From the NCBI RefSeq assembly GCF_003576375.1, contig NZ_QWGE01000006.1, positions 91,704-155,703 of the forward strand: 64,000 nucleotides of DNA. Reading direction: 5' to 3'. Positions within the stretch are counted from its first letter, which is position 1; each line of letters begins with the position of its first letter. This DNA comes from Pontibacter oryzae (GTDB taxonomy: Bacteria; Bacteroidota; Bacteroidia; Cytophagales; Hymenobacteraceae). Shown here one piece after another: positions 9,576 to 43,432 of this stretch. A program made the translations under genes and the position numbers. The notes under the pieces are model-generated. The model saw nothing but the letters and a program-made list of their open reading frames with translations, did not search any database and was not told the DNA's origin.

Positions 9576-12131
9576 CTACTGCCCAACAACAAAAACCGCG
9601 TTGCCGAACAAGAGCTTGCCGCCTTGCCAGAATCCTCTGAAAAGCGGGTTATCTGCCAGGTAAACCACTTCGCCGCGCCCCATGTTTTGGGTACCGATAA
9701 TGAGGGCATCCTTCAGCTTATCTTTCGCCTCTTTACCTACAAAGCCTGTGGTATAATTATCCTTCTTGAGCACGCCTACGTTCCAGCCATCCGCTAAAAA
9801 CTCAAAGGCGTTAGAAGAACGAACCAAGGCAAAGTAATTGTCGCTATAGCCAAAGGCCAGCGGGTGCGTTTTATCCAGGTCTATGCGGAATATGCTGCCT
9901 TGCACTTCGCTATCCAGGGCTGCTCGTTCACGGTTTGCATACGCACGCAGGTTTTTATAAGGGTCTTTTTCCTTGCCGTTGCCTTTCTCTTTGTCCTGCT
10001 CAGCATCTGATTTGCGCTTCAGCTCGAAGCCTTTTTTGCCAGCCAGGTAACTCATGGCGCTTTCCAGGGCGATCAGTTTGCCACCGCTGCGCACCCAATC
10101 CTGCACTTTCTCCAGCGTTTTCTCATCCAGCACGTTTCCGTAAAACCCAGACGGTAAAATCAGGACGTCAAACTCATGCAGCGGCACCTGGCTAAAGTAT
10201 GAGGTGTTCAGCACCGTGACTGGGTAATTTATCTGCTGCTCAAAGAAGTGCCATACTTCTCCGAAACCATACGGTGATATACCCTCACCCGACATGAGGG
10301 CCACTTTTGGCATTTTCAGGGAGCGCACGTTGCCAGAGCCAAAGTCTGCGCCGCTAGTTACAAAGCCTGTGGTGGTGGCGCCAAGCTGCACGTTAAACTG
10401 TTGGGCAAGGCTGCGAACCGTGCTGTCAAAGGCACCACCCATGCGCTCGTTTCCGGTGCGGGTGATGATTACGGTGCCCGGTTCATACTTGGTGCCATCA
10501 ATCTCGAAAGGGCGCTCGGCCATGCGCACCTTCACACCTTTTTCCATCAACTTGGTTGTAAACTTCAAGTCTTGCAGGCTGTGCCAAGGTGCCAGGTAGG
10601 CGTATGGTTTTTCAATCGTGATGCTGGTGCTTTCTGTAGCAGGCTTGGTCTGGCTCATGTCCACTTTCCCTCTCACGGCATAGGCCTGCACGCCGTAAGC
10701 ATACGGCAACGACCAGGACGTAATGTCATAGGTCAGGGAGTCCTCGAGGCTGGCATTCGGCTCGAAAAGCACTTTTACCAAAATCGATTTTGGCTGATAC
10801 ATGCTGATAACCACATCCTCTGGTGCCAGCTTTATACTTTCGGTTTTGCCATTGCTGTAATTATAGCCTTTCACGGAGTTTGATTTGCCCGCGTAGCCAT
10901 AGGCAATGCCTTGCTGGCCCAGGTAATCGGTTAACATGCGCAAGTTTCCAATGCTGCCGCTACTGCTCTTTATCACAAAGGATTTATAGTTGCCCTCTGG
11001 GTTCTTGAGGCTGCTGTCATAATATTTCCTGAACTCCTGCTTCAGTTGGTCGGCTTTCTCGGACGTGGCTTGAATGGTTGCTTTGCTGGCCGCCACGTGG
11101 TGCGCAATGCGGTCGTGCAGGGTAAGCGTATCGCCATCCTGTTTCTTGTACGCCAAACCGGCCCGGCCAGAGCCGCCCTGCTCATAGGTCATGCCAATGG
11201 CACCGTTATAGGTTGGCCAGGTATCGCCGTAGCTCGGGTAAAAAAGGTCGAAACTTTCGCGGGTGAAGTATAACCAGTTATTTTTATCGAAATACTGGCG
11301 GTTGTACTCGCCAATGGTATTTTGGAACTGGCGCTGCCAAGGTGTAATGCTCTCATGGAAAGGTTTAGCCGCCGGCGAGAAATAGTACGGAGACTCCACA
11401 CCCATCTCATGGAAATCGGCGTGTACCTGAGGCAGCCAGTTGTTGTATACTTTTAACCTTTCCTGAGACTCTACTTGTGTTTGCCAGGCCCAATCGCGGT
11501 TAAGGTCGAAGTAATAGTGGTTTGGCCTGCCGCCCGGCCACGGCTCGTAATGCTCCCAGGCATAAGGCGAGGCGTTACCGCCGCGGTTAGATGCCTGCTG
11601 GTACCACTGCACATAGCGCTCACGGCCGTCAGGGTTTACCATCGGGTCAAGTATAACCACCGTGTTCTGCAGCCACTGCTTACTTTGGGCATTGCTTGGG
11701 TTTACCAGGTCATACAGCACCTGCATCACCGACTCCGAGCTTACCGATTCATTGCCGTGCACGTTGTAGCTGAGCCAGGCAATAGCAGGCTGGTTGCCCT
11801 GCACCTGCCCTGTTACTAGCTGGGCCTGGCGCAGGTTGTTCTCCCGGATTTGCTCCAGGCGGGGCAAATTTTCGTCAGAAGCTACGAAGGCCAGCATCAG
11901 GGGGCGGTTTTCATAGGTGCGGCCATACTCCTGCAGCTTTACCCGGTTGGGAGCTTGCGCGGCAACATATTTCACATAATCCAGGATGCGGTTTTGCGTG
12001 GTAAACTGCTCCCCCAGCTCGTAGCCCAGGAACTCAGCCGGCGACTGCAATGCCTGCTGCGCCACAGCCAGCTGCACGTTAAGTAGAACCAACATCAAAG
12101 CGGCCATGCGCTTCAGCGGTGTAAATATCAT
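9576..12131 (-). CDS. Secreted M14-family zinc carboxypeptidase
   Basis: An 851-residue protein with a signal peptide (hydrophobic run ending LAVAQQA near residue 25). The peptidase domain (about 30-350) shows HGNESVSSE (first His and Glu zinc ligands, near residue 124) and VHADFHEMG (third ligand region, near 237), with DPMVNPDGRER between them, a typical M14 signature. The C-terminal half (about 560-851) contains LMSGEGISPYGFGEVWHFFE and LILPSGFYG, resembling a glutaminase/DJ-1-like domain found in long bacteroidetal M14 proteins. It probably trims peptides in the periplasm or outside. Single transcription unit with its own terminator. Confidence 0.88.
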   Translation of the reverse strand: MIFTPLKRMAALMLVLLNVQLAVAQQALQSPAEFLGYELGEQFTTQNRILDYVKYVAAQAPNRVKLQEYGRTYENRPLMLAFVASDENLPRLEQIRENNLRQAQLVTGQVQGNQPAIAWLSYNVHGNESVSSESVMQVLYDLVNPSNAQSKQWLQNTVVILDPMVNPDGRERYVQWYQQASNRGGNASPYAWEHYEPWPGGRPNHYYFDLNRDWAWQTQVESQERLKVYNNWLPQVHADFHEMGVESPYYFSPAAKPFHESITPWQRQFQNTIGEYNRQYFDKNNWLYFTRESFDLFYPSYGDTWPTYNGAIGMTYEQGGSGRAGLAYKKQDGDTLTLHDRIAHHVAASKATIQATSEKADQLKQEFRKYYDSSLKNPEGNYKSFVIKSSSGSIGNLRMLTDYLGQQGIAYGYAGKSNSVKGYNYSNGKTESIKLAPEDVVISMYQPKSILVKVLFEPNASLEDSLTYDITSWSLPYAYGVQAYAVRGKVDMSQTKPATESTSITIEKPYAYLAPWHSLQDLKFTTKLMEKGVKVRMAERPFEIDGTKYEPGTVIITRTGNERMGGAFDSTVRSLAQQFNVQLGATTTGFVTSGADFGSGNVRSLKMPKVALMSGEGISPYGFGEVWHFFEQQINYPVTVLNTSYFSQVPLHEFDVLILPSGFYGNVLDEKTLEKVQDWVRSGGKLIALESAMSYLAGKKGFELKRKSDAEQDKEKGNGKEKDPYKNLRAYANRERAALDSEVQGSIFRIDLDKTHPLAFGYSDNYFALVRSSNAFEFLADGWNVGVLKKDNYTTGFVGKEAKDKLKDALIIGTQNMGRGEVVYLADNPLFRGFWQGGKLLFGNAVFVVGQ

Positions 12132-12289
12132 GTATGATTAGATGTTAAATGAATGATGTGCTTATTTTATACACAATCTGGACAAAAAAGGCGAATAAGA
12201 CAAACAATGGCATCATTTGGCGCCATTGTTTGTCTTATTCGCCGCTTATACTTTGTTTCAAAGATGTTTAAACAATTGTGAAATTTTTA
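12132..12289. other. Intergenic segment with a perfect 22-base inverted repeat
   Basis: Between the M14 gene start and the ncRNA promoter. Arms at 12190-12211 and 12222-12243 (GGCGAATAAGACAAACAATG plus GC, and its exact complement) enclose a 10-base loop. No T-run follows on either side, so it is not an ordinary terminator. Confidence 0.7.
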
Positions 12290-12290
12290 G

Positions 12291-12298
12291 TAGCTTTG
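12291..12298 (+). promoter_or_regulatory. Bacteroidota -7 element of the ncRNA candidate
   Basis: TAGCTTTG matches the TAnnTTTG consensus, followed by GCACCC; transcription would start near 12305. An AT-rich TTTA/TTG region lies at the -33 distance but is not a clear match. Confidence 0.55.
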
Positions 12299-12302
12299 CA
12301 CC

Positions 12303-12531
12303 CGAAACCCGATTTGGGTTTCCAATCGCCCTATCCCCTACAGAAAACAAATTCCATGTTATGGCTTTAGGCCATGCCTTATAGCGTTCAGCTTTTTCTC
12401 GACTCAGCTTTTAGGTGACACCAACTGAATTTAAACTGACGGCAAGAAGGCATTCGGGCGATAATTGAAGAGAAACTAAACTAACTAAGCTACACTCAGA
12501 CCCGGCGTTTTGCGCCGGGTTTTGTTTTTTA
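12303..12531 (+). ncRNA. Structured non-coding RNA candidate (6S-like layout)
   Basis: No reading frame fits, but many paired segments do. A 5' hairpin GAAACCC (12304-12310) / GGGTTTC (12316-12322); a long-range stem ATCGCCC (12325-12331) / GGGCGAT (12456-12462); an inner stem ATGCCTT (12374-12380) / AAGGCAT (12447-12453); a local hairpin ATGGC/GCCAT (12361-12375); and a GC-rich terminator at 12500-12520 with a T-run. A -7 element precedes it. A long closing stem with a large internal bubble and a terminal arm recalls 6S RNA, but I cannot confirm the family. It does not look like tmRNA, RNase P RNA or SRP RNA. Confidence 0.55.
12500..12530 (+). terminator. Intrinsic terminator of the ncRNA candidate
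   Basis: ACCCGGCG (12500-12507) pairs with CGCCGGGT (12513-12520), followed by TTTGTTTTTT. Confidence 0.85.
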
Positions 12532-12556
12532 TTCGCTAGTCGCGTAAAAGCAAAGT

Positions 12557-13252
12557 ATGCAAGGCGTATTTCTCAAAATGATTCGGGTTGTTAGCTGGGC
12601 GCTACTTATAGTTGCTGGCCTAATGCTTGCTTTTGTAGTTACTGCCTTTGTGCTAAGCAGCATCCCGGTGAATAGCGGCTTTGCGCAGCCCCCTGCCCAG
12701 CAAAACCAACTGGAGATATTTGTTACCTCCAACGGTGTGCATACAGATATCGTGGTGCCGGTGGCAACCTCATACATCGACTGGCGCACTAAGCTGCCCT
12801 TACATCAGTTTGAGGGCATCGATAGCAGTTATCAGTACATCGCCTTTGGCTGGGGCGACCGCCGCTTTTACATGGAAACACCTTCCTGGACCGACCTTAC
12901 CCCATCAGTGGCTCTTACTGCAGCGCTCTGGCCCACCCGAGCCGCCATGCATGTAGAGTATATCAAACATAAACTGATACCCACTAAACGACAGCAGCCG
13001 GTATATATCTCCCCAAAGCAATACCTACAGCTGATTCATTATATTGAAGCATCGTTTGTGCAGCAGCAGGGGCAATTCAAGCATATTCCAGGGTCTGGCT
13101 ATACGCCGCAGGATACATTTTATGAAGCGCACGGCAGGTTCTATATACTTAATAATTGCAATAATTGGGTAAATAATGGACTGAAGCAAATGGGCTTTAA
13201 AACAGGATTATGGGCCCCGCTGCCCTTTGCCGTGATGCGCCACCTCCGCTAA
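12557..13252 (+). CDS. DUF2459 (TIGR02117-like) family protein
   Basis: A 231-residue protein with an N-terminal membrane anchor (WALLIVAGLMLAFVVTAFVL), so the rest is likely periplasmic. Family landmarks are SNGVHTDIVVPV (near residue 55), YIAFGWGDRRFYMETP, and NCNNWVNNGLKQMGF near the C-terminus. A conserved His and Cys in these motifs suggest a papain-like or amidase-type site, but no activity is established for the family. A second ATG at 12578 would remove 7 residues and still keep the anchor. It lies just after the ncRNA terminator, so it likely has its own promoter. Confidence 0.82.
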   Translation: MQGVFLKMIRVVSWALLIVAGLMLAFVVTAFVLSSIPVNSGFAQPPAQQNQLEIFVTSNGVHTDIVVPVATSYIDWRTKLPLHQFEGIDSSYQYIAFGWGDRRFYMETPSWTDLTPSVALTAALWPTRAAMHVEYIKHKLIPTKRQQPVYISPKQYLQLIHYIEASFVQQQGQFKHIPGSGYTPQDTFYEAHGRFYILNNCNNWVNNGLKQMGFKTGLWAPLPFAVMRHLR

Positions 13253-13257
13253 AAGAA

Positions 13258-13286
13258 AAACCCTGGCAAGCGCCAGGGTCCTTTCT
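13258..13286. terminator. Convergent terminator
   Basis: CCCTGGC AAGC GCCAGGG at 13261-13278, flanked by an A-run on the left and CTTTCTT on the right, between the DUF2459 gene and pirin. Confidence 0.8.
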
Positions 13287-13315
13287 TCATCAATCACTAA
13301 ACACAATTACTATCT

Positions 13316-14029
13316 TTATTTCATCGGAATTTCTATTAACAGCAGTTCTGCATCAGCCGAGGATTTTATACTTACCCAATCGGCATCGCTAATGCCCATG
13401 CCATCTCGCTTTTCAAGTTTTTCGCCGTCAATCTCAACTTCCCCTTCCAGCACAAAAGCATAAACCCCATTACCTCGTTTATGCAGTTGGTAATCTTCCG
13501 AAAAACCGGCTTTTAAACTCCCAAGCGTAAACCAGGCATCCTGGTTAATCCAAAGGGCATCACTTCCTTTTTCCGGGGAAATTACGGTTTGTAGCTTGTT
13601 TTGCCGGTCTTCCGGCTTGTACGCCTTTTGCTCATACCTTGGCTGGATGCTCTGCTCTTTAGGAAACACCCAGATCTGCAAAAAGTTTACAGGTTCTGTT
13701 TTAGATGCGTTAAATTCGGAGTGCGTCAGTCCGCTACCTGCCGACATGATCTGCACTTCGTTCGTCTCGATCACTTCGCTGGTGCCGGTGCTGTCTTGGT
13801 GGGCAAGCGCGCCTTTCAGGGGTATCGACACAATCTCCATATTATCGTGGGGGTGCGTGCCAAAGCCCATGCCCGGCGCTACAATATCATCGTTTAGCAC
13901 GCGCAGCAGGCCAAAACCCATACGCTCCGGATTATAGTACCTTGCGAAGCTAAACGTATGGTGTGAGTTTAACCAGCCGTGGTTGGCATGCCCGCGCGTA
14001 TCTGCTTTATGGATTATTTTCTTGCTCAT
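13316..14029 (-). CDS. Pirin family protein
   Basis: A 237-residue bicupin. The N-terminal cupin has GHANHGWLNSHHTFSFARYY and FGTHPHDNMEIVSIPLKG with the His and Glu residues of the pirin metal site, then SAGSGLTHSE. The C-terminal cupin (about 150-237) is less conserved. Some pirins are iron-dependent quercetin 2,3-dioxygenases, others are redox-linked regulators; the sequence does not decide. It starts 4 bases after the nitroreductase gene, so the two form an operon, probably linked to quinone, flavonoid or electrophile stress. Confidence 0.9.
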   Translation of the reverse strand: MSKKIIHKADTRGHANHGWLNSHHTFSFARYYNPERMGFGLLRVLNDDIVAPGMGFGTHPHDNMEIVSIPLKGALAHQDSTGTSEVIETNEVQIMSAGSGLTHSEFNASKTEPVNFLQIWVFPKEQSIQPRYEQKAYKPEDRQNKLQTVISPEKGSDALWINQDAWFTLGSLKAGFSEDYQLHKRGNGVYAFVLEGEVEIDGEKLEKRDGMGISDADWVSIKSSADAELLLIEIPMK

Positions 14030-14033
14030 AGTT

Positions 14034-14636
14034 TTATACTTGGTTGCCAGAGTCGTTTTGTGGCCATTGCCCTTTAAATGCCATTTCTTCGAGTGGCTTG
14101 CGGCTTCGTTTTGCCAGTTCGCGCGCCTTCAGGTTTTCCGGAAGCGAATCCGGGTCGCCAACATAGCCTATTGCCCCCATCGATACAGCTTCGTAACCGT
14201 CTGGAATGCCCAGCGCCTCGTGCGCCTTACTCACGTCGAAGCCACCCATCAGGTGCACATGCAAGCCCAGGTCCGTAGCCTGGAGCAGCAGGTTGCCAGT
14301 TGCTAGCCCCACATCGTGCCAGGCGTGCTTATTCGGTTTCCCGTTCAGGTCGTAATGTATTTTGGCCACTGTAACAAAGAGTGCACCGGCATTCTTGGCC
14401 CAACTGTTCCCTTCCAGCAGGCAACCAAACAAACGCTCAAATTTCCCCTTGTCATCCTTTGTAGCATAAATAAATCGCTAGGGCTGCTCGTTCATGGCAG
14501 AAGGTGCCCAACGCGCAGCTTCAAATAGCGTAGCAAGTTGGGCTTCACTTATGCTTTCGTCTCGAAACGCTCTTGGGCTCCAGCGCCGCTCTATTAAATT
14601 ATGTATGGCTATAGTATCTTCTGTAGGTGTATTCAT
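14034..14636 (-). pseudogene. Nitroreductase family gene with an in-frame amber stop
   Basis: From the ATG at 14636 the frame gives a typical flavin nitroreductase N-terminus (RRWSPRAFRDE, then ARWAPSAMNEQP). Codon 53 (14478-14480 on the + strand) is TAG, followed in the same frame by RFIYATKDDKGKFERLFG and then a complete C-terminal part to the stop at 14034. Family members usually have Trp at this place (NEQPWR), so a single TGG-to-TAG change explains it. The total of 200 codons equals the family length. A 132-residue internal start at 14432 would lack the FMN-binding N-terminus. Either a recent nonsense mutation, a sequencing error, or read-through. Confidence 0.85.
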
Positions 14637-14694
14637 GTCTTGTTAATTAAACCTCTTACCTTATTACGTGTTTAAGCTATGAGCTAGAGACGCA

Positions 14695-14721
14695 ATTTAA
14701 TGTACATACATTTAATGTACA
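14695..14721. promoter_or_regulatory. Operator-like repeat upstream of the nitroreductase-pirin operon
   Basis: ATTTAATGTACA occurs at 14695-14706 and again at 14710-14721 (period 15). Together they also form an inverted repeat TGTACAT-7-ATGTACA. It lies 59 bases upstream of the nitroreductase start in a divergent intergenic region, a usual place for a HxlR- or MarR-type redox regulator. No such regulator gene is in the window. Confidence 0.5.
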
Positions 14722-14797
14722 AACACAACATGCATTTAGTTTCCGACAGAGATAATTATTTTATGCTAAAACTGGCATGTCACAACTCCTGAGCACA

Positions 14798-14821
14798 TTA
14801 TTTCATTGTAAAATGAAATAA
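14798..14821. promoter_or_regulatory. AT-rich palindrome upstream of the aminotransferase-GRAS gene
   Basis: TTATTTCATT (14798-14807) and AATGAAATAA (14812-14821) are exact complements with 4 bases between, about 100 bases before the start codon. No T-run follows, so it is more like an operator than a terminator. Confidence 0.45.
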
Positions 14822-14918
14822 ACGACATAGTGTTCATACATTGCAGACAATATTTATATATATTGGGCACTTGAAATCAACCCGTATAAACTGCTCCAAT
14901 TCTACGTCTTTTACTTTT

Positions 14919-17066
14919 ATGGAAACATCCGCCCAGTTACATTACAATGGCTCCACAAACGAAAATCTTTTCGGGATCTCGGCTAAGGTAGCCGATGCCC
15001 TTCAGCATGCCATCACCTTTACACATACTTACCCCAACCCGGATGCTTCGGCACTCTCTTCGGCAATTGCTGCACGCCTTGCCGTAAATCCTTCTCAGGT
15101 TGCAATTGGCAGTGGGTCTGCGGAGCTTATCTCGCTGCTGGTAAGAGCTATTTGTAAACCACACCCCGATAGCAACATTGTATCCGTAATGCCAACCTAC
15201 CCGCTTTACCGGCTCGAGGCAGAGGCATTGGGAGTGCATTACAAAACTGCCCCACTCAACAGCAAGCATGAGCTTGAGATAGAGTGCCTCCTGCAGCAGA
15301 TTGACGAGAAAACACGTATAATTTTCTTGGCTAACCCCAACAACCCCACTGGTAACTACCTGACGCAGCCACAACTAGAGCGCCTGTTACAGGAGGTTCC
15401 GCCGCAGGTGCTTCTGGTGCTGGACGAAGCTTACGTGGAGTATACCACTGCCCCGGATTTTACAGATGGGATGGCTTACCTAAGCCAATATCCAAATCTT
15501 GTTGTGCTACGAACATTCTCTAAAGCTTATGGCCTTGCTGCTCTACGTGTTGGCTACCTGGTGGCCCAAGAGCAGCTGGTACAGAAGATTCTTACCGTAA
15601 AGCTGCCCTACAATGTAAATCAATTTGCTCAAATGGCCGCTCTGGCTGCCCTTGAAGATCAGGAGCATTTAAACCATACTGTATCTGAAACGCTTATAAG
15701 CAAAGCGCATTTGCAGCAACTACTGGATGCATGCGGTGTGCAGTGGTGGCCTTCAGAGGGTAATTTTCTTTATGTTGATGCAGGTGTTCCGGCTGCCGGA
15801 GTAGTGGCGGGCCTGGCCCAGTATGGCATCCGCGTGCGCGAAATGGACAGTAAATTTCATTTCAGAATCACGGTAGGCACCCACGAGAACCAGCAACACC
15901 TCCACGAGAAGCTCAACGACATACTTGCACCTGCCCAAATCTGGCCCGACAAAGCACTTGCACAGATACTTGAGACAGGTTATCAACTACCAAATATAGA
16001 AGACGTGTTTCAGGGGCTTGCCGCCGTTGCAGATCTTGCCGAAACAGCCAATAGCATTGGTACTGCCGCCGAGCGTATTGCACTTGCCTTTGCGCGTGCC
16101 TTCAGCGCCTGCCTTGGCCCGGAGGGCAACGAACACGCCGGCAACCTGTATAGCAGCACCTATGGCGAAACCGACATGATCTCAGCGTTCAACGTGTTGG
16201 TGAAATCGACGCCACTCGTTACGTTTGGGCACTTGTTCGGGAATCTGGCTATTGCCAAGGCTACAGAGCAGTCTAACGACATTCATATATTGGACTTGGG
16301 TATCGGCAGCGGCTTGCAGTGGCTACATTTGCTTGATGTATTGGCAGCCCGCCCCGGCAAAGCCCCTAAAATAAGTATAACCGGCGTGGATATTCCGGCA
16401 AGCACGGGCACGCCTGATGCACGCCTGCGCCAGGCCGGCTGTATGCTGCAGCAACATGCCGCACGCTTAGGCTTGGAGTTTCATTACTCGTGCCTGGCAA
16501 AGCGCCTGGAAGACGTAACGCTGCAGGATTTATACTTCTCCCCTACCGAGACGCTTGTTGTGAACTCAACCTTTACGCTTCATCATTTGCCAGATAAGCT
16601 GCAAGGCGAGGTGGACTACCGCGACAAAGTATTGCAACAGGTTAAAGCCCTTAAACCCGCTATCGTTACGCTAACCGAGCCGGACTCTGAGCATAACAAG
16701 CTAAACTTTTTGCCTCGCCTGCGCGAATCGCTGCGGCATTATTACACTGTTTTTGATGCTCTGGACACTTTACTACCACGCTTTATGCCTGAGCGCCAGG
16801 TTATTGAGCAGGAGTTTTTTGGCCGTGAGATCATCAATGTGATATCTTGTGAGGGATCGCAACGCGTAGAGCGCCACGAGCGCCACGAGGCCTGGCGGCA
16901 GCGCCTTGCCCGCAATGGCTTTGCTCCCGCAGACCACCTGATCAAACCTAAAGACATACACCAGGCGCTGGAACTGCACCCTAACTTCTCGTTGCAGCCA
17001 AACGGTGCCGGTTATACTTTGTGCTGGAAAGGTACGCCCGTGGTGGCAGCTACGGCATGGGTATAA
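14919..17066 (+). CDS. Fusion of a HisC-like PLP aminotransferase and a GRAS-type methyltransferase domain
   Basis: 715 residues from the ATG at 14919; an upstream in-frame TTG at 14841 would add 26 residues of poor quality. Residues 1-340 are a fold-type I aminotransferase close to histidinol-phosphate aminotransferase: NPNNPTG (139-145), LDEAYVEY with Asp169 (168-175), and TFSKAYGLA with the PLP lysine at 202. Residues about 347-715 match GRAS proteins: AERIALAFARAF, IHILDLGIGSGLQW (the VHIID region, a Rossmann SAM-binding site), VVNSTFTLHHLP, FFGREIINVISCEG with RVERHE, and the C-terminal LCWKGTPVVAATAW (the SAW region). Bacterial GRAS domains are predicted SAM-dependent methyltransferases. 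No his operon is nearby. Its role is likely transamination and methylation of one small molecule. Confidence 0.85.
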   Translation: METSAQLHYNGSTNENLFGISAKVADALQHAITFTHTYPNPDASALSSAIAARLAVNPSQVAIGSGSAELISLLVRAICKPHPDSNIVSVMPTYPLYRLEAEALGVHYKTAPLNSKHELEIECLLQQIDEKTRIIFLANPNNPTGNYLTQPQLERLLQEVPPQVLLVLDEAYVEYTTAPDFTDGMAYLSQYPNLVVLRTFSKAYGLAALRVGYLVAQEQLVQKILTVKLPYNVNQFAQMAALAALEDQEHLNHTVSETLISKAHLQQLLDACGVQWWPSEGNFLYVDAGVPAAGVVAGLAQYGIRVREMDSKFHFRITVGTHENQQHLHEKLNDILAPAQIWPDKALAQILETGYQLPNIEDVFQGLAAVADLAETANSIGTAAERIALAFARAFSACLGPEGNEHAGNLYSSTYGETDMISAFNVLVKSTPLVTFGHLFGNLAIAKATEQSNDIHILDLGIGSGLQWLHLLDVLAARPGKAPKISITGVDIPASTGTPDARLRQAGCMLQQHAARLGLEFHYSCLAKRLEDVTLQDLYFSPTETLVVNSTFTLHHLPDKLQGEVDYRDKVLQQVKALKPAIVTLTEPDSEHNKLNFLPRLRESLRHYYTVFDALDTLLPRFMPERQVIEQEFFGREIINVISCEGSQRVERHERHEAWRQRLARNGFAPADHLIKPKDIHQALELHPNFSLQPNGAGYTLCWKGTPVVAATAWV

Positions 17067-17090
17067 GTATAAATCACACGTGATACTACA

Positions 17091-17124
17091 AACGGGCCGC
17101 CTGCAATGCGGCCCGTTTTCATTT
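17091..17124 (+). terminator. Terminator after the aminotransferase-GRAS gene
   Basis: AACGGGCCGC (17091-17100) pairs with GCGGCCCGTT (17108-17117), followed by TTCATTTT. Confidence 0.85.
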
Positions 17125-17171
17125 TAGCGCAAGCCAACGTACCGAAGTCATCACCTCTGTTTCTTATTTTG

Positions 17172-17179
17172 TATCTTTG
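17172..17179 (+). promoter_or_regulatory. -7 element before thiL
   Basis: TATCTTTG followed by CACTTTG, 24 bases before the start codon, matches TAnnTTTG. Confidence 0.55.
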
Positions 17180-17202
17180 CACTTTGTAAACTGATTTTAA
17201 GT

Positions 17203-18228
17203 ATGAGCGAATATACTCCACTTAGTGCGGTAGGCGAATTCGGCCTTATCCGGAAAATTAAAGAGAAAATTGAGCTGCGCAATAATTCTACTATCAAAGG
17301 GATCGGGGATGATGCGGCAGTGTTGGCGCCACAGGAAAAGCAGGTAGTTGTATCGTCGGATATGCTGCTGGAGAGCGTGCACTTCGACCTGACCTTCTGC
17401 CCCCTGAAGCACCTGGGCTATAAAGCCGTGGCCGTAAACGTTTCCGACATTGCCGCCATGAACGCCAAGCCTACGCAAATTACGGTGAACATTGCGGTTG
17501 GCGCGCGCTTTACCGTAGAGGCCGTTGAAGAGCTTTACGAGGGCATCCGGCTGGCCTGCGAGAGCTACAAGGTGGACCTTGTAGGTGGCGATACCACCTC
17601 TTCCAGGGCAGGCCTGGTGATCAGTGTGACAGCTATCGGAGAGGCTAAACCCGAAGAGATAGTATACCGCAATGGTGCAAAAGTAAATGACTTAGTATGC
17701 GTTACCGGCGATCTGGGTGCTGCATACATGGGCTTGCAGATACTCGAGCGTGAGAAGCAGGCATTTATGGCAAACCCTGAAATGCAGCCGGAGCTCGACG
17801 AGAAACAATACATTGTGGGTCGCCAGTTAAGGCCTGAGGCACGCATGGACGTGATCTACGACCTGAAGGAGCGCGGCATACAACCAACAGCCATGATCGA
17901 TATTTCTGACGGGCTGGCCTCAGAGCTGTTCCATATCTGCAGCCAGTCGGGCGTAGGCGCTGTGGTATACAAAGACAACCTGCCTGCTGACCCACAGATG
18001 CTGGAAACCGCCGTTGAATTTAACATCGACCCGCTTACCTGCATCATGAATGGTGGTGAAGACTATGAGTTGCTTTTCACGGTTCCGCTTGCCGCTTACG
18101 ATGAGCTAAAGAACCACCCGGACATTACCATCATCGGCAACATCACCGAAGAAAGCGAAGGCGTAAACCTGGCCACCAAATCCGGACAGGTGTTCCCGCT
18201 GAAAGCCCAGGGATGGAGCCATTTTTAA
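17203..18228 (+). CDS. thiL: Thiamine-monophosphate kinase
   Basis: A 341-residue enzyme of the PurM/ThiL ATP-binding fold; it phosphorylates thiamine monophosphate to thiamine diphosphate, the last step of cofactor synthesis, in the cytosol. Visible landmarks are GEFGLIRKI near the N-terminus, IKGIGDDAAVL (residues 31-41), SSDMLLESVHFD, VNVSDIAAMNAKP, DLVGGDTTSS, GDLGAAYMGL, DISDGLASEL and NGGEDYELLF. All metal and ATP motifs are intact and the length is normal. No other thiamine gene is adjacent. It has its own promoter and ends at the hairpin 18281-18325. Confidence 0.95.
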   Translation: MSEYTPLSAVGEFGLIRKIKEKIELRNNSTIKGIGDDAAVLAPQEKQVVVSSDMLLESVHFDLTFCPLKHLGYKAVAVNVSDIAAMNAKPTQITVNIAVGARFTVEAVEELYEGIRLACESYKVDLVGGDTTSSRAGLVISVTAIGEAKPEEIVYRNGAKVNDLVCVTGDLGAAYMGLQILEREKQAFMANPEMQPELDEKQYIVGRQLRPEARMDVIYDLKERGIQPTAMIDISDGLASELFHICSQSGVGAVVYKDNLPADPQMLETAVEFNIDPLTCIMNGGEDYELLFTVPLAAYDELKNHPDITIIGNITEESEGVNLATKSGQVFPLKAQGWSHF

Positions 18229-18232
18229 GATT

Positions 18233-18259
18233 GGCGTATCTCGTATCACGTATCACGAC
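18233..18259 (-). repeat. TACG-rich intergenic repeat, copy 1
   Basis: Reverse complement reads GTCGTGATACGTGATACGAG plus ATACG; four related copies in alternating orientation bracket the 18362-18730 gene. Confidence 0.55.
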
Positions 18260-18280
18260 ATTAAATTGGATAGACTGTAA

Positions 18281-18325
18281 ACAGAAGAGGAGCACAAAAT
18301 TGTGCTCCTCTTCTGTTTTTATTAT
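18281..18325. terminator. Bidirectional terminator after thiL
   Basis: ACAGAAGAGGAGCACA (18281-18296) pairs exactly with TGTGCTCCTCTTCTGT (18301-18316), followed by TTTTATT. Confidence 0.85.
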
Positions 18326-18326
18326 T

Positions 18327-18360
18327 GTCGTGCTACTTGATACGTACTACGTGCTACGCA
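18327..18360 (+). repeat. TACG-rich intergenic repeat, copy 2
   Basis: GTCGTGCTACTTGATACGTA followed by CTACGTGCTACGCA; same orientation as copy 4. Confidence 0.55.
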
Positions 18361-18361
18361 A

Positions 18362-18730
18362 TCAATCTTCCGGGAAAGGTATAAACACGAAGTTCTGAAA
18401 CTCGCCGTCTACCACAAAGAGGCAGCAAAACTCGTCGGGGTCTTTGTAAGCGGCTCTGAACTCCTCTATTTTATCATCCGCGATTAATTGCCGGTTCACG
18501 AAGTCCTCCAGGTAAGAGGCGTTGATGTGCCACTCCAGGGCTACCTCCTCTTTCGCCAAAAACACAGAGCCAACGGGCACCTGTGTGCGGCTAAACACAA
18601 AAATCGGGTATTCAGAAATCTGACGCTTGCGCACCTGGTACGATGCCTCCTTCAGCGTCTCGGCTACCACTACAAAGTCCTTTGAAATGGTGCCTAGGTA
18701 TTTACCGTTCAGTTCCGGATCGTTTTCCAT
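18362..18730 (-). CDS. Hypothetical protein, 122 residues
   Basis: An acidic, soluble protein without signal peptide or membrane segment. Visible features: ISEYPIFVFSRTQVPVG in the middle and a C-terminal FCCLFVVDGEFQNFVFIPFPED with paired Cys. Composition and codon use look like a real gene, and similar short proteins occur in related bacteria as far as I can recall, but I cannot assign a family. It is flanked on both sides by TACG-rich repeats, which isolates it from thiL and rlmD. Confidence 0.7.
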   Translation of the reverse strand: MENDPELNGKYLGTISKDFVVVAETLKEASYQVRKRQISEYPIFVFSRTQVPVGSVFLAKEEVALEWHINASYLEDFVNRQLIADDKIEEFRAAYKDPDEFCCLFVVDGEFQNFVFIPFPED

Positions 18731-41563: not shown

Positions 41564-43432
41564 TTAGATTTGCTTCACGAAATCAGCGAATACTTTCTTG
41601 TGAAGCGCAAGATCCATGTCCGGGGATAGCGATACGCGGGCAATGTAATCTTTGTCAGCTTCTTTGGTTGTGCCTTGCGTGGAGGTAGCCGGGATGGTCC
41701 AGTAGCAGCCTTTTAACTGCCCGTAGCTCACGCAGTACTTACTTTCATGCGGAATTTCAGTGATCATCATATTGATCAACTTGTTATTTAGCTCCCGTTT
41801 GTAGCCTTCCCGTTCTTCAGGCGTGTTGCCCTTGGTGGGCAGGTCCAGCGAGAACACAGATGGCGTAAAGCCCTGCTGCGCTAGCTCTTCTGACACAAAA
41901 TTGATCTTAGCCTGGGGCAACGTATCCTTGATGAAGTTTACAAACGCACGTGTATTTTTGTAGGCTTCCGCAATCCGTTGGTTCATAGAGGGAAGCTGTT
42001 CGGCTAGTATCTCCAGTTGGAGCTCGGTTGCCTCGTTATCACACAGCTGCAGGTGCTTGTCTATTTTCTCGAGCAAAGCCTCGGCTTTCGTGTTTGCCAC
42101 GCAGTAGCCGGCTGTAGCCTTGCCACCGCTCGGGAACTTAGAGCCGCTAACGTAGGAAATAGCCCTTACCGTGGAGAGCACTCCATCTTCAGCCAAAAAC
42201 TGCACATTCGGGCAGAACGTTTGGTCCAGAATAAACACCGGATCAATGGCAGGCTGCCCGGCAGCGGTGTAGCGCGCCTTGCTAAGCACCTCCTTCAATT
42301 GTATAAGGTTGGGCACCTCAACCCTCGGGTTGGTCGGTATTTCAGCTATAATGTATGGCACAGCATCCTGGCTGGCAATTTTCTCTAGCACTGTGTCTAT
42401 ACTTTGCACCATGTCATTCTCCCCGTCAACCAGCAGATCCACTACTTCCACGTTGGCAAGTATGGCGGCTATGCGCCGGGCCTGGTCGTTGGTGCCGCCG
42501 TAGCAGTTTGGCGGAACAATAAACTTGATGTCCTTGCCGGGGTGTTGGTCCAGGGCATCATGCACAAGGCCCATCATAATTGCGTATTGCATCGACAGCC
42601 CCGAAGAGCCAATCAGCGCTTTCGCGGTGGTGCCTGTAATCTCGTTAATCAAGCTTCTAACCTTTGCTTTGGTGGCTTCGGCATCGCTTTTCTTTTGCTC
42701 CGGAGTGGGCTTTTTTAGCAGTCTTTGCAGGGCAACAAGGCAATTGGCCGGCGTCATAGCGATGCTCTCCCTCCTTCTCACGTGCTGTATCTCAGAAACA
42801 TATTCGCTGTTCTGCTCACCGTTTACCAACAGCACACTTCCCAGACCCATATACACGCTTACATAAAAGTCGATGGCTGGGGAAAGCCTGGCCTGGCCAA
42901 CTTCATCTTCCTCTGAAAAGAAAACAGTGCTCCCATCAAACCCGGCAAGCTCTTCCAACTTCTCAACGCGCTCTAGCTCAAATTTATACCCATACACATA
43001 CTGGAGCGTTTCCGCATCGAAGAAAGCGGGCAGATTACCGGTATAAACAATGCGGGTGTTTTTCTGAGTTAGTAAGTTCTTTCTTAGAACAGCCAATACA
43101 GGCATCGTCCGGGATGAGAAACTGATAACATTTTCCGGCTTCAGGTTGTGCAAACGGCCTAGTGCCCACTCCAGTACAGAAGATAGCGGGTGGCCTAAGC
43201 GGATATAATCAAAGGCGGTGGGTAGAGCACTAAGCGCGGCTGTCTGTGCGTTGCCTGCCTCGAACAAAGCCTCAAACTGCTCCAGAAACTGGGTTTTGGC
43301 TAACTGTTCGTTATAAATATCCAGCCGGTGAGTTGTTAGCCTCAGCCAATCCGCTGGCATGTTTTCTAGTACGCTGTCAATATAAGTAAGCACCTTGTTA
43401 TCTTCCATTCTATTTGTCTTGTGATAAGCCAT
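41564..43432 (-). CDS. Long Cys/Met-metabolism-like PLP-dependent enzyme
   Basis: 622 residues, much longer than usual gamma-synthases and lyases (about 380-400). The fold-type I core spans about 255-620: GSSGLSMQYAIMMGLVHDAL, FIVPPNCYGGTNDQARRIA, FILDQTFCPN (Asp facing the PLP ring) and the likely PLP lysine in ISYVSGSKFPSGGKATAGY. The extra N-terminal 220 residues include NVISFSSRTMPVLAVLRKNL and may be a degenerate second copy or a regulatory part. A downstream ATG at 43408 would remove 8 residues. Likely acts on a sulfur amino acid; the reaction is not predictable. It stands alone. Confidence 0.78.
   Translation of the reverse strand: MAYHKTNRMEDNKVLTYIDSVLENMPADWLRLTTHRLDIYNEQLAKTQFLEQFEALFEAGNAQTAALSALPTAFDYIRLGHPLSSVLEWALGRLHNLKPENVISFSSRTMPVLAVLRKNLLTQKNTRIVYTGNLPAFFDAETLQYVYGYKFELERVEKLEELAGFDGSTVFFSEEDEVGQARLSPAIDFYVSVYMGLGSVLLVNGEQNSEYVSEIQHVRRRESIAMTPANCLVALQRLLKKPTPEQKKSDAEATKAKVRSLINEITGTTAKALIGSSGLSMQYAIMMGLVHDALDQHPGKDIKFIVPPNCYGGTNDQARRIAAILANVEVVDLLVDGENDMVQSIDTVLEKIASQDAVPYIIAEIPTNPRVEVPNLIQLKEVLSKARYTAAGQPAIDPVFILDQTFCPNVQFLAEDGVLSTVRAISYVSGSKFPSGGKATAGYCVANTKAEALLEKIDKHLQLCDNEATELQLEILAEQLPSMNQRIAEAYKNTRAFVNFIKDTLPQAKINFVSEELAQQGFTPSVFSLDLPTKGNTPEEREGYKRELNNKLINMMITEIPHESKYCVSYGQLKGCYWTIPATSTQGTTKEADKDYIARVSLSPDMDLALHKKVFADFVKQI

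Follow-up and report, generated by a model that had tools for sequence, protein, structure and literature searches.

Bacterial GRAS domains with an intact SAM motif were reportedly described by Zhang, Iyer and Aravind in 2012, and they are said to have been predicted to methylate small molecules. The MrsA/MrsB beta-methylarginine pair consists of an aminotransferase and a keto-acid methyltransferase. According to the literature, soil bacteria passed GRAS on to the alga from which land plants descend (PMC9942845); a bacteria-to-plant transfer is stated too in PMC5332381 and PMC12448838, and one bacterial GRAS subgroup groups with plants (PMC12448838). Among the literature matches listed, whose coverage did not extend to the 2012 paper on bacterial GRAS, no paper described a fusion of GRAS to an aminotransferase, and we make no claim of a first report.

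Here we analyzed a 64,000-nucleotide stretch of DNA from Pontibacter oryzae (the window), which is carried by a genome of 4.23 Mb and contains such a fusion. This protein gives a hint at the function of the GRAS family before plants had GRAS. In particular, an aminotransferase that is fused to GRAS here and recurs beside it elsewhere offers a concrete clue that the GRAS substrates belong to the amino or keto acids, and the prediction becomes testable on a single protein.

The fusion gene and its two halves

The fusion gene starts with an ATG at 14919 and ends with a stop codon at 17064-17066, and its reading frame stays open back to a TTG at 14841. The gene is composed of the following parts:

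14919-17066, forward strand: HisC-like aminotransferase-GRAS fusion gene, 715 residues
14952-15923, forward strand: HisC-like PLP aminotransferase domain, residues 12-335 (PF00155, TIGR01141 and residue table)
15924-16022, forward strand: variable linker, residues 336-368 (mean pairwise identity of 42% across 22 fusions)
16023-17063, forward strand: GRAS domain, residues 369-715 (PF03514 and motif alignment)

Pfam matches to both halves confirmed the first-pass annotation of this DNA, which had described an aminotransferase fused to a GRAS domain at these coordinates. The same annotation had given residues 347-715 as the C-terminal domain; GRAS is indeed present in this span, but the Pfam match begins near residue 369, and residues 336-368 form the linker. 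The mean pairwise identity across the 22 fusions was 62% in the HisC half and 66% in the GRAS half. We also located the motifs that had been quoted, namely DLGIGSG at 459, LHHLPD at 554, RVERHE at 649 and K202 within TFSK.

The Pfam GRAS family (PF03514; cut-off of 27 bits) matched residues 369-714 with an E-value of 6.4e-90 and a score of 302.2 bits, and the match was near full length (model positions 23-373 of 374). The profile search that had been proposed as a check thus gave a significant GRAS score and not an ordinary methyltransferase lacking one. An ordinary methyltransferase misread as GRAS was rejected as an explanation, as a Pfam scan of the C-terminal half, run at E<=10 with the HMMER filters on, reported no family other than GRAS. 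By sequence, the best solved-structure matches of the GRAS half were plant GRAS proteins, with E-values of 7e-44 for plant RGA, 4e-41 for rice SCL7 (5hyz), 3e-37 for SCARECROW and 1e-28 for SHORT-ROOT. Seventeen solved-structure sequences were matched at E<=1; the final two were RecD at 0.8, and the 15 ahead of them were all GRAS proteins from plants, with E-values of 7e-44 to 3e-13. Residue-by-residue alignment to RGA, SCL7 and DELLA 1 revealed that the VHIID-, PFYRE- and SAW-type regions of GRAS were conserved.

The class I SAM motif I was found as DLGIGSG at residues 459-465, with D491 as the motif-II acid. In the motif alignment, all 40 bacterial GRAS sequences had motif I ([D/N]xGxGxG) as well as a D or E in motif II, and LHH was invariant. 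Both motif I and the motif-II acid were kept in all 22 fusions, whereas RGA, SCL7 and DELLA 1, as aligned, lacked at least one motif-I glycine and the motif-II acid. The SAM-binding motif is therefore intact, and the earlier claim of an intact SAM pocket holds at the motif level only. The GRAS half is best read as a predicted class I Rossmann methyltransferase. AlphaFold models built from four sequences were of low confidence (pLDDT of 61 and 53). A Foldseek search with the low-confidence GRAS model returned plant GRAS first (E-value of 1.5e-16) and CmoA next (3.5e-5), with TM-scores near 0.4 and below, and this model-based comparison contributes little beyond the sequence matches.

Among aminotransferases, the N-terminal half is most similar to HisC. 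Pfam Aminotran_1_2 (PF00155), a family of fold-type I PLP aminotransferases, matched residues 12-331 with an E-value of 1.2e-50, and the window protein scored 299.8 bits with the HisC equivalog model TIGR01141, above the curated cut-off of 276.55. The window protein has NPNNPTG at 139, D169 and the PLP lysine K202, and R307 and R316 are the likely equivalents of E. coli R322 and R335. The E. coli HisC residues Y55, N157, D184, Y187, S213, K214, R222, R322 and R335 were all kept in 22 of 22 fusions; together with the TIGR01141 score, the retained K214 equivalent bears out the annotated HisC-like partner with PLP Lys202. Some positions (E. coli numbering) differed. At position 85, E. coli and 13 of 14 separate HisC rows have D, and the fusions have A (21 sequences) or G (one sequence). 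At position 54, E. coli and all 14 separate HisC rows have R, a residue that was found there in one of the 22 fusions. Additionally, the N-terminal arm with Tyr20 was absent from the window protein, in which the TIGR01141 match begins at profile position 26, and was missing or unalignable across the fusions in the residue table. Some rows of this table include letters 5' of likely start codons, and one such row, L012, has a Y in column 20.

Occurrence, selection and gene context of the fusion

Of the 50 genus genomes, 22 (among them G003, G019 and G034) carry the fusion as one open frame of 716-774 residues with no inner stops. Its presence in 22 genomes ruled out a chimeric assembly or a chance open reading frame. 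The HisC half was matched at E<=1e-60 in 22 of the 50 genus genomes, the same 22 that carry GRAS, and neither half was found alone in any of the 50 at the thresholds used. The two halves are thus present or absent as a unit in the genus. A contig scan with the fusion as the query matched three Pontibacter contigs. Among the 204 genomes of the family, GRAS was present in 22, every one of them from the window's genus, and it was rare more broadly: it was found in 4 of 395 sampled genomes of the phylum, and the counts were 21 of 390 for the order, 1 of 244 for the class that includes genome G358 and 1 of 8 for the family that includes genome G433. These wider counts overlap and include the query genomes. 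Among the 14 closest pairs listed per half, dN/dS was 0.04-0.09 in the HisC half and 0.07-0.11 in the GRAS half, and both halves are under purifying selection.

The following features lie around the fusion gene:

13316-14639, reverse strand: divergent pirin gene and nitroreductase-like gene (Pfam Pirin)
17090-17118, forward strand: terminator-like hairpin just 3' of the stop codon (11-bp stem, 8 G-C pairs, fold z of -3.5)
17203-18228, forward strand: downstream AIRS-family gene (Pfam AIRS)

The hairpin is consistent with a single-gene unit; one terminator-like site was observed in 14440-17300 against a mean of 3.3 in shuffles, so shuffling the sequence does not make these sites any less frequent. 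The AIRS-family gene, which we take to be thiL-like, was found by tblastn at one of the 21 other fusion loci and is a neighbor, not a conserved partner. A convergent NUDIX gene was present at 19 of 22 fusion loci and a divergent MarR-type gene at 14 of 22, both labels coming from Pfam typing of one member per cluster. The pirin and nitroreductase-like clusters were each found at 7 of 22 loci, and we regard these genes as neighbors of the fusion. The nitroreductase-like gene (14034-14639, reverse strand) has an in-frame stop in its first third, and loci L064-L066 have a 194-residue open reading frame at the same place. A conserved operon in the genus was rejected, as no co-directional gene adjoining the fusion was common to more than 2 of the 22 loci. 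With a hairpin after its stop codon and no widely shared co-directional neighbor, the fusion looks self-contained.

No RNA element over the Rfam thresholds was found in 12000-18500, and sigma-70-like sites in 14440-17300 numbered 4 against 3.7 in shuffles. A Bacteroidetes-type promoter pattern had six matches in the window and none just upstream of the fusion gene. Elsewhere in the window, a 622-residue protein (41564-43432, reverse strand) had only a just sub-threshold Cys/Met PLP enzyme match (26.5 against 27 bits).

Histidine genes and the pairing of unfused GRAS with HisC-like genes

The first-pass annotation had placed the fusion outside any his operon. In agreement with this, hisD and the best HisC of the window genome lie side by side on another contig (C2:214278-216495):

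C2:214278-215441: hisD
C2:215482-216495: HisC, 370 bits, the best of the genome, directly after hisD
C2:217203-217631: IGPD

The fusion scored below this separate HisC. The window genome has a separate HisC over the cut-off, and so do 13 of the 14 other GRAS genomes searched. The exception was G433, in which no such HisC was found besides the GRAS-linked gene, itself below the cut-off with 239.8 bits. We found no match to hisD or IGPD/hisB in the G433 assembly (160 contigs, 99% completeness). The hisD and IGPD searches were each positive in 13 of 14 controls, and both failed on Bacillus subtilis, which presumably possesses both genes; given the 160 contigs and the missed control, the absence is good yet not certain evidence. 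As these matches are lacking, the GRAS-adjacent HisC-like gene of G433 is unlikely to serve histidine. The label HisC-like should not be read here as histidine biosynthesis, and the role of the fusion is most likely a different one. Histidinol-phosphate activity is nevertheless conceivable for the window protein, given its score above the curated HisC cut-off and its R322 and R335 equivalents.

We compared the fusion with a sample of 18 unfused bacterial GRAS genes, 16 from Bacteroidota and two on Skermanella plasmids. A HisC-like gene was immediately adjacent on the same strand at 5 of the 18. In G358, the HisC-like gene comes first and overlaps the GRAS gene in ATGA. In the other four, GRAS comes first: in G433, its stop ends at 9628 and the candidate ATG of the HisC-like gene is at 9630 (L045), and in G1009, G1026 and G987 the gaps are 188, 68 and 55 bases, respectively. 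As the five pairs are spread over three families, they represent about three independent cases. The chance expectation was estimated at about 0.5% per locus, or 0.1 in 18 loci, from the 11 TIGR01141-matching genes among some 4,000 genes of the window genome. The remaining 13 of 18 GRAS genes had no HisC-like neighbor (phmmer at E<=1e-5 with the window's HisC half as the query), indicating that GRAS works without a HisC-like partner too. In all five adjacent partners R335 was kept and R322 was lost, and Tyr20 was found in none. As R322 is kept in the fusions, the fused and GRAS-adjacent partners may differ in substrate.

The aminotransferase tree placed the fusions in a single clade (100/99) and the partners from G433, G1009, G1026 and G987 in another (100/92). 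The sister of this four-partner clade was the separate HisC of G358 (L100), which is not GRAS-linked (99/91). The other separate HisC rows formed a clade with E. coli HisC (100/96), apart from both the fusions and the four partners, and the four-partner clade was nearer to it (99/98) than to the fusions. A tree that holds all 27 GRAS-linked HisC-like proteins in one clade was rejected (AU p of 0.0084), which argues that the pairing recurred and is not one inherited arrangement; grouping of the fusion HisC with the HisC of L027 in one clade was not rejected (p of 0.23). These trees point to at least two HisC-like lineages paired with GRAS. In the GRAS tree, L027 and three plant sequences fell on the same side of a branch (100/99) as the 22 fusions, and the other 17 bacterial GRAS sequences fell on the opposite side. 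The grouping of the fusions with the plants (97/85) is tentative: long branches meet on this side of the tree, and a group of the fusions and L027 without the plants was not rejected (p of 0.12).

Several other neighbors of the unfused GRAS genes were observed. Among those without a HisC-like neighbor, four related genomes (L046, L048, L050 and L053) have a gene of 331 residues 3' of GRAS, which belongs to the phosphotriesterase family by Pfam in the L046 copy. A PF03641 gene lies upstream of the GRAS/HisC-like pair on the same strand in two related genomes, L054 (10115-10864, reverse) and L055 (9136-9885, forward), as typed by Pfam on the L054 copy; we take this family, named 'possible lysine decarboxylase', to be LOG-type. 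A protein of about 130 residues, alike by eye, lies beside unfused GRAS in L047 (10110-10499), L051 (8168-8569), L052 (8809-9210), L057 (8914-9306) and L058 (10159-10548), and had no Pfam family over the cut-off in L047, L051 and L052. GRAS was found on plasmids in two Skermanella records only (L029 and L030), where it is convergent with a PAS-domain gene that itself adjoins a response regulator; no aminotransferase was found within the stretch shown.

Proposed function and comparison with known systems

The fusion is probably a bifunctional enzyme, predicted to act as transaminase and methyltransferase in two steps on a metabolite of the amino-acid or keto-acid type. The HisC-like half would transaminate the substrate via PLP on Lys202, and the GRAS half would methylate the same small molecule with SAM. 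This reading builds on the presence of both domains, their conserved PLP and SAM motifs, purifying selection, occurrence as a unit in the genus and recurrent pairing. The recurrence of a HisC-like partner beside unfused GRAS genes favors a joint function, so the earlier proposal of one two-step enzyme is supported in part. Activity in each half, a substrate common to the two and the order of the steps are our inferences. A more specific version, offered tentatively and by analogy with the MrsA/MrsB pair, is C-methylation of a keto acid: the aminotransferase would produce an alpha-keto acid for methylation by the GRAS half, and the aminotransferase in its PMP form would then restore the amino group to yield a methylated amino acid. 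The further suggestion that the product is a signal is unsupported.

Three other explanations were weighed against the two-step reading. The GRAS half might be a regulatory or binding domain, with SAM or the product of the aminotransferase as the ligand sensed, and not a methyltransferase. In favor of this, GRAS proteins act as regulators in plants, and the match to plant structures spans most of the domain; we regard it as unlikely in view of motif I and the motif-II acid, which all 22 fusions retain and which are incomplete in RGA, SCL7 and DELLA 1 as aligned. It is quite unlikely that each half has a different molecule as its substrate and that the fusion serves co-expression or dimer stability only. 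No substrate evidence ties the halves together and most unfused GRAS genes (13 of 18) have no HisC-like neighbor, but pairing with the same enzyme class recurs in both gene orders and with at least two HisC-like lineages.

The fusion might instead be an additional histidinol-phosphate aminotransferase that carries an accessory domain, which would account for the score above the TIGR01141 equivalog cut-off and the retained R322 and R335. This explanation is very improbable, however, when the better HisC adjoining hisD in the same genome, the missing N-terminal arm and the separation of the fusion clade from that holding E. coli HisC are considered, along with the GRAS-linked HisC-like gene of G433, a genome with no hisD or IGPD match.

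Compared with HisC (TIGR01141), the two-step fusion proposed here shares the family, the PLP site and a score over the cut-off, and differs in its missing N-terminal arm, its changed position 85, its place away from hisD and its lower score than the best HisC of the genome. By analogy, it may work like MrsA/MrsB (TIGR04543/TIGR04544), although it is not a member and lies far below the family cut-offs: the TIGR04544 score of the window protein was 66.9 against a cut-off of 350, and TIGR04543 had no match in the window GRAS domain. TIGR04543 matched 5 of the 18 unfused GRAS sequences at E<=0.05, and CbiT models matched 6 and 8 of the 18, one more strongly (1.6e-5). The methylarginine analogy is therefore weak, as the scores are far below the cut-offs and other methyltransferase models match GRAS as weakly.

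Plant GRAS proteins (RGA, SCL7, SCR and SHR) are homologous to the fusion over the domain; they differ in that the aligned plant sequences have lost parts of the SAM motif and the matched plant chains have no aminotransferase half. It is conceivable, though rather doubtful, that the plant GRAS regulators stem from the methyltransferase half of an enzyme pair modifying amino or keto acids, so that the fusion would display the chemistry of the ancestor and plant GRAS domains may have retained a pocket that binds a related ligand derived from an amino acid. Bacterial GRAS domains are already known, and the fusion is not a new family; it shares the GRAS domain and the intact SAM motif with the bacterial proteins of Zhang, Iyer and Aravind (2012), and here this domain is fused to an aminotransferase.
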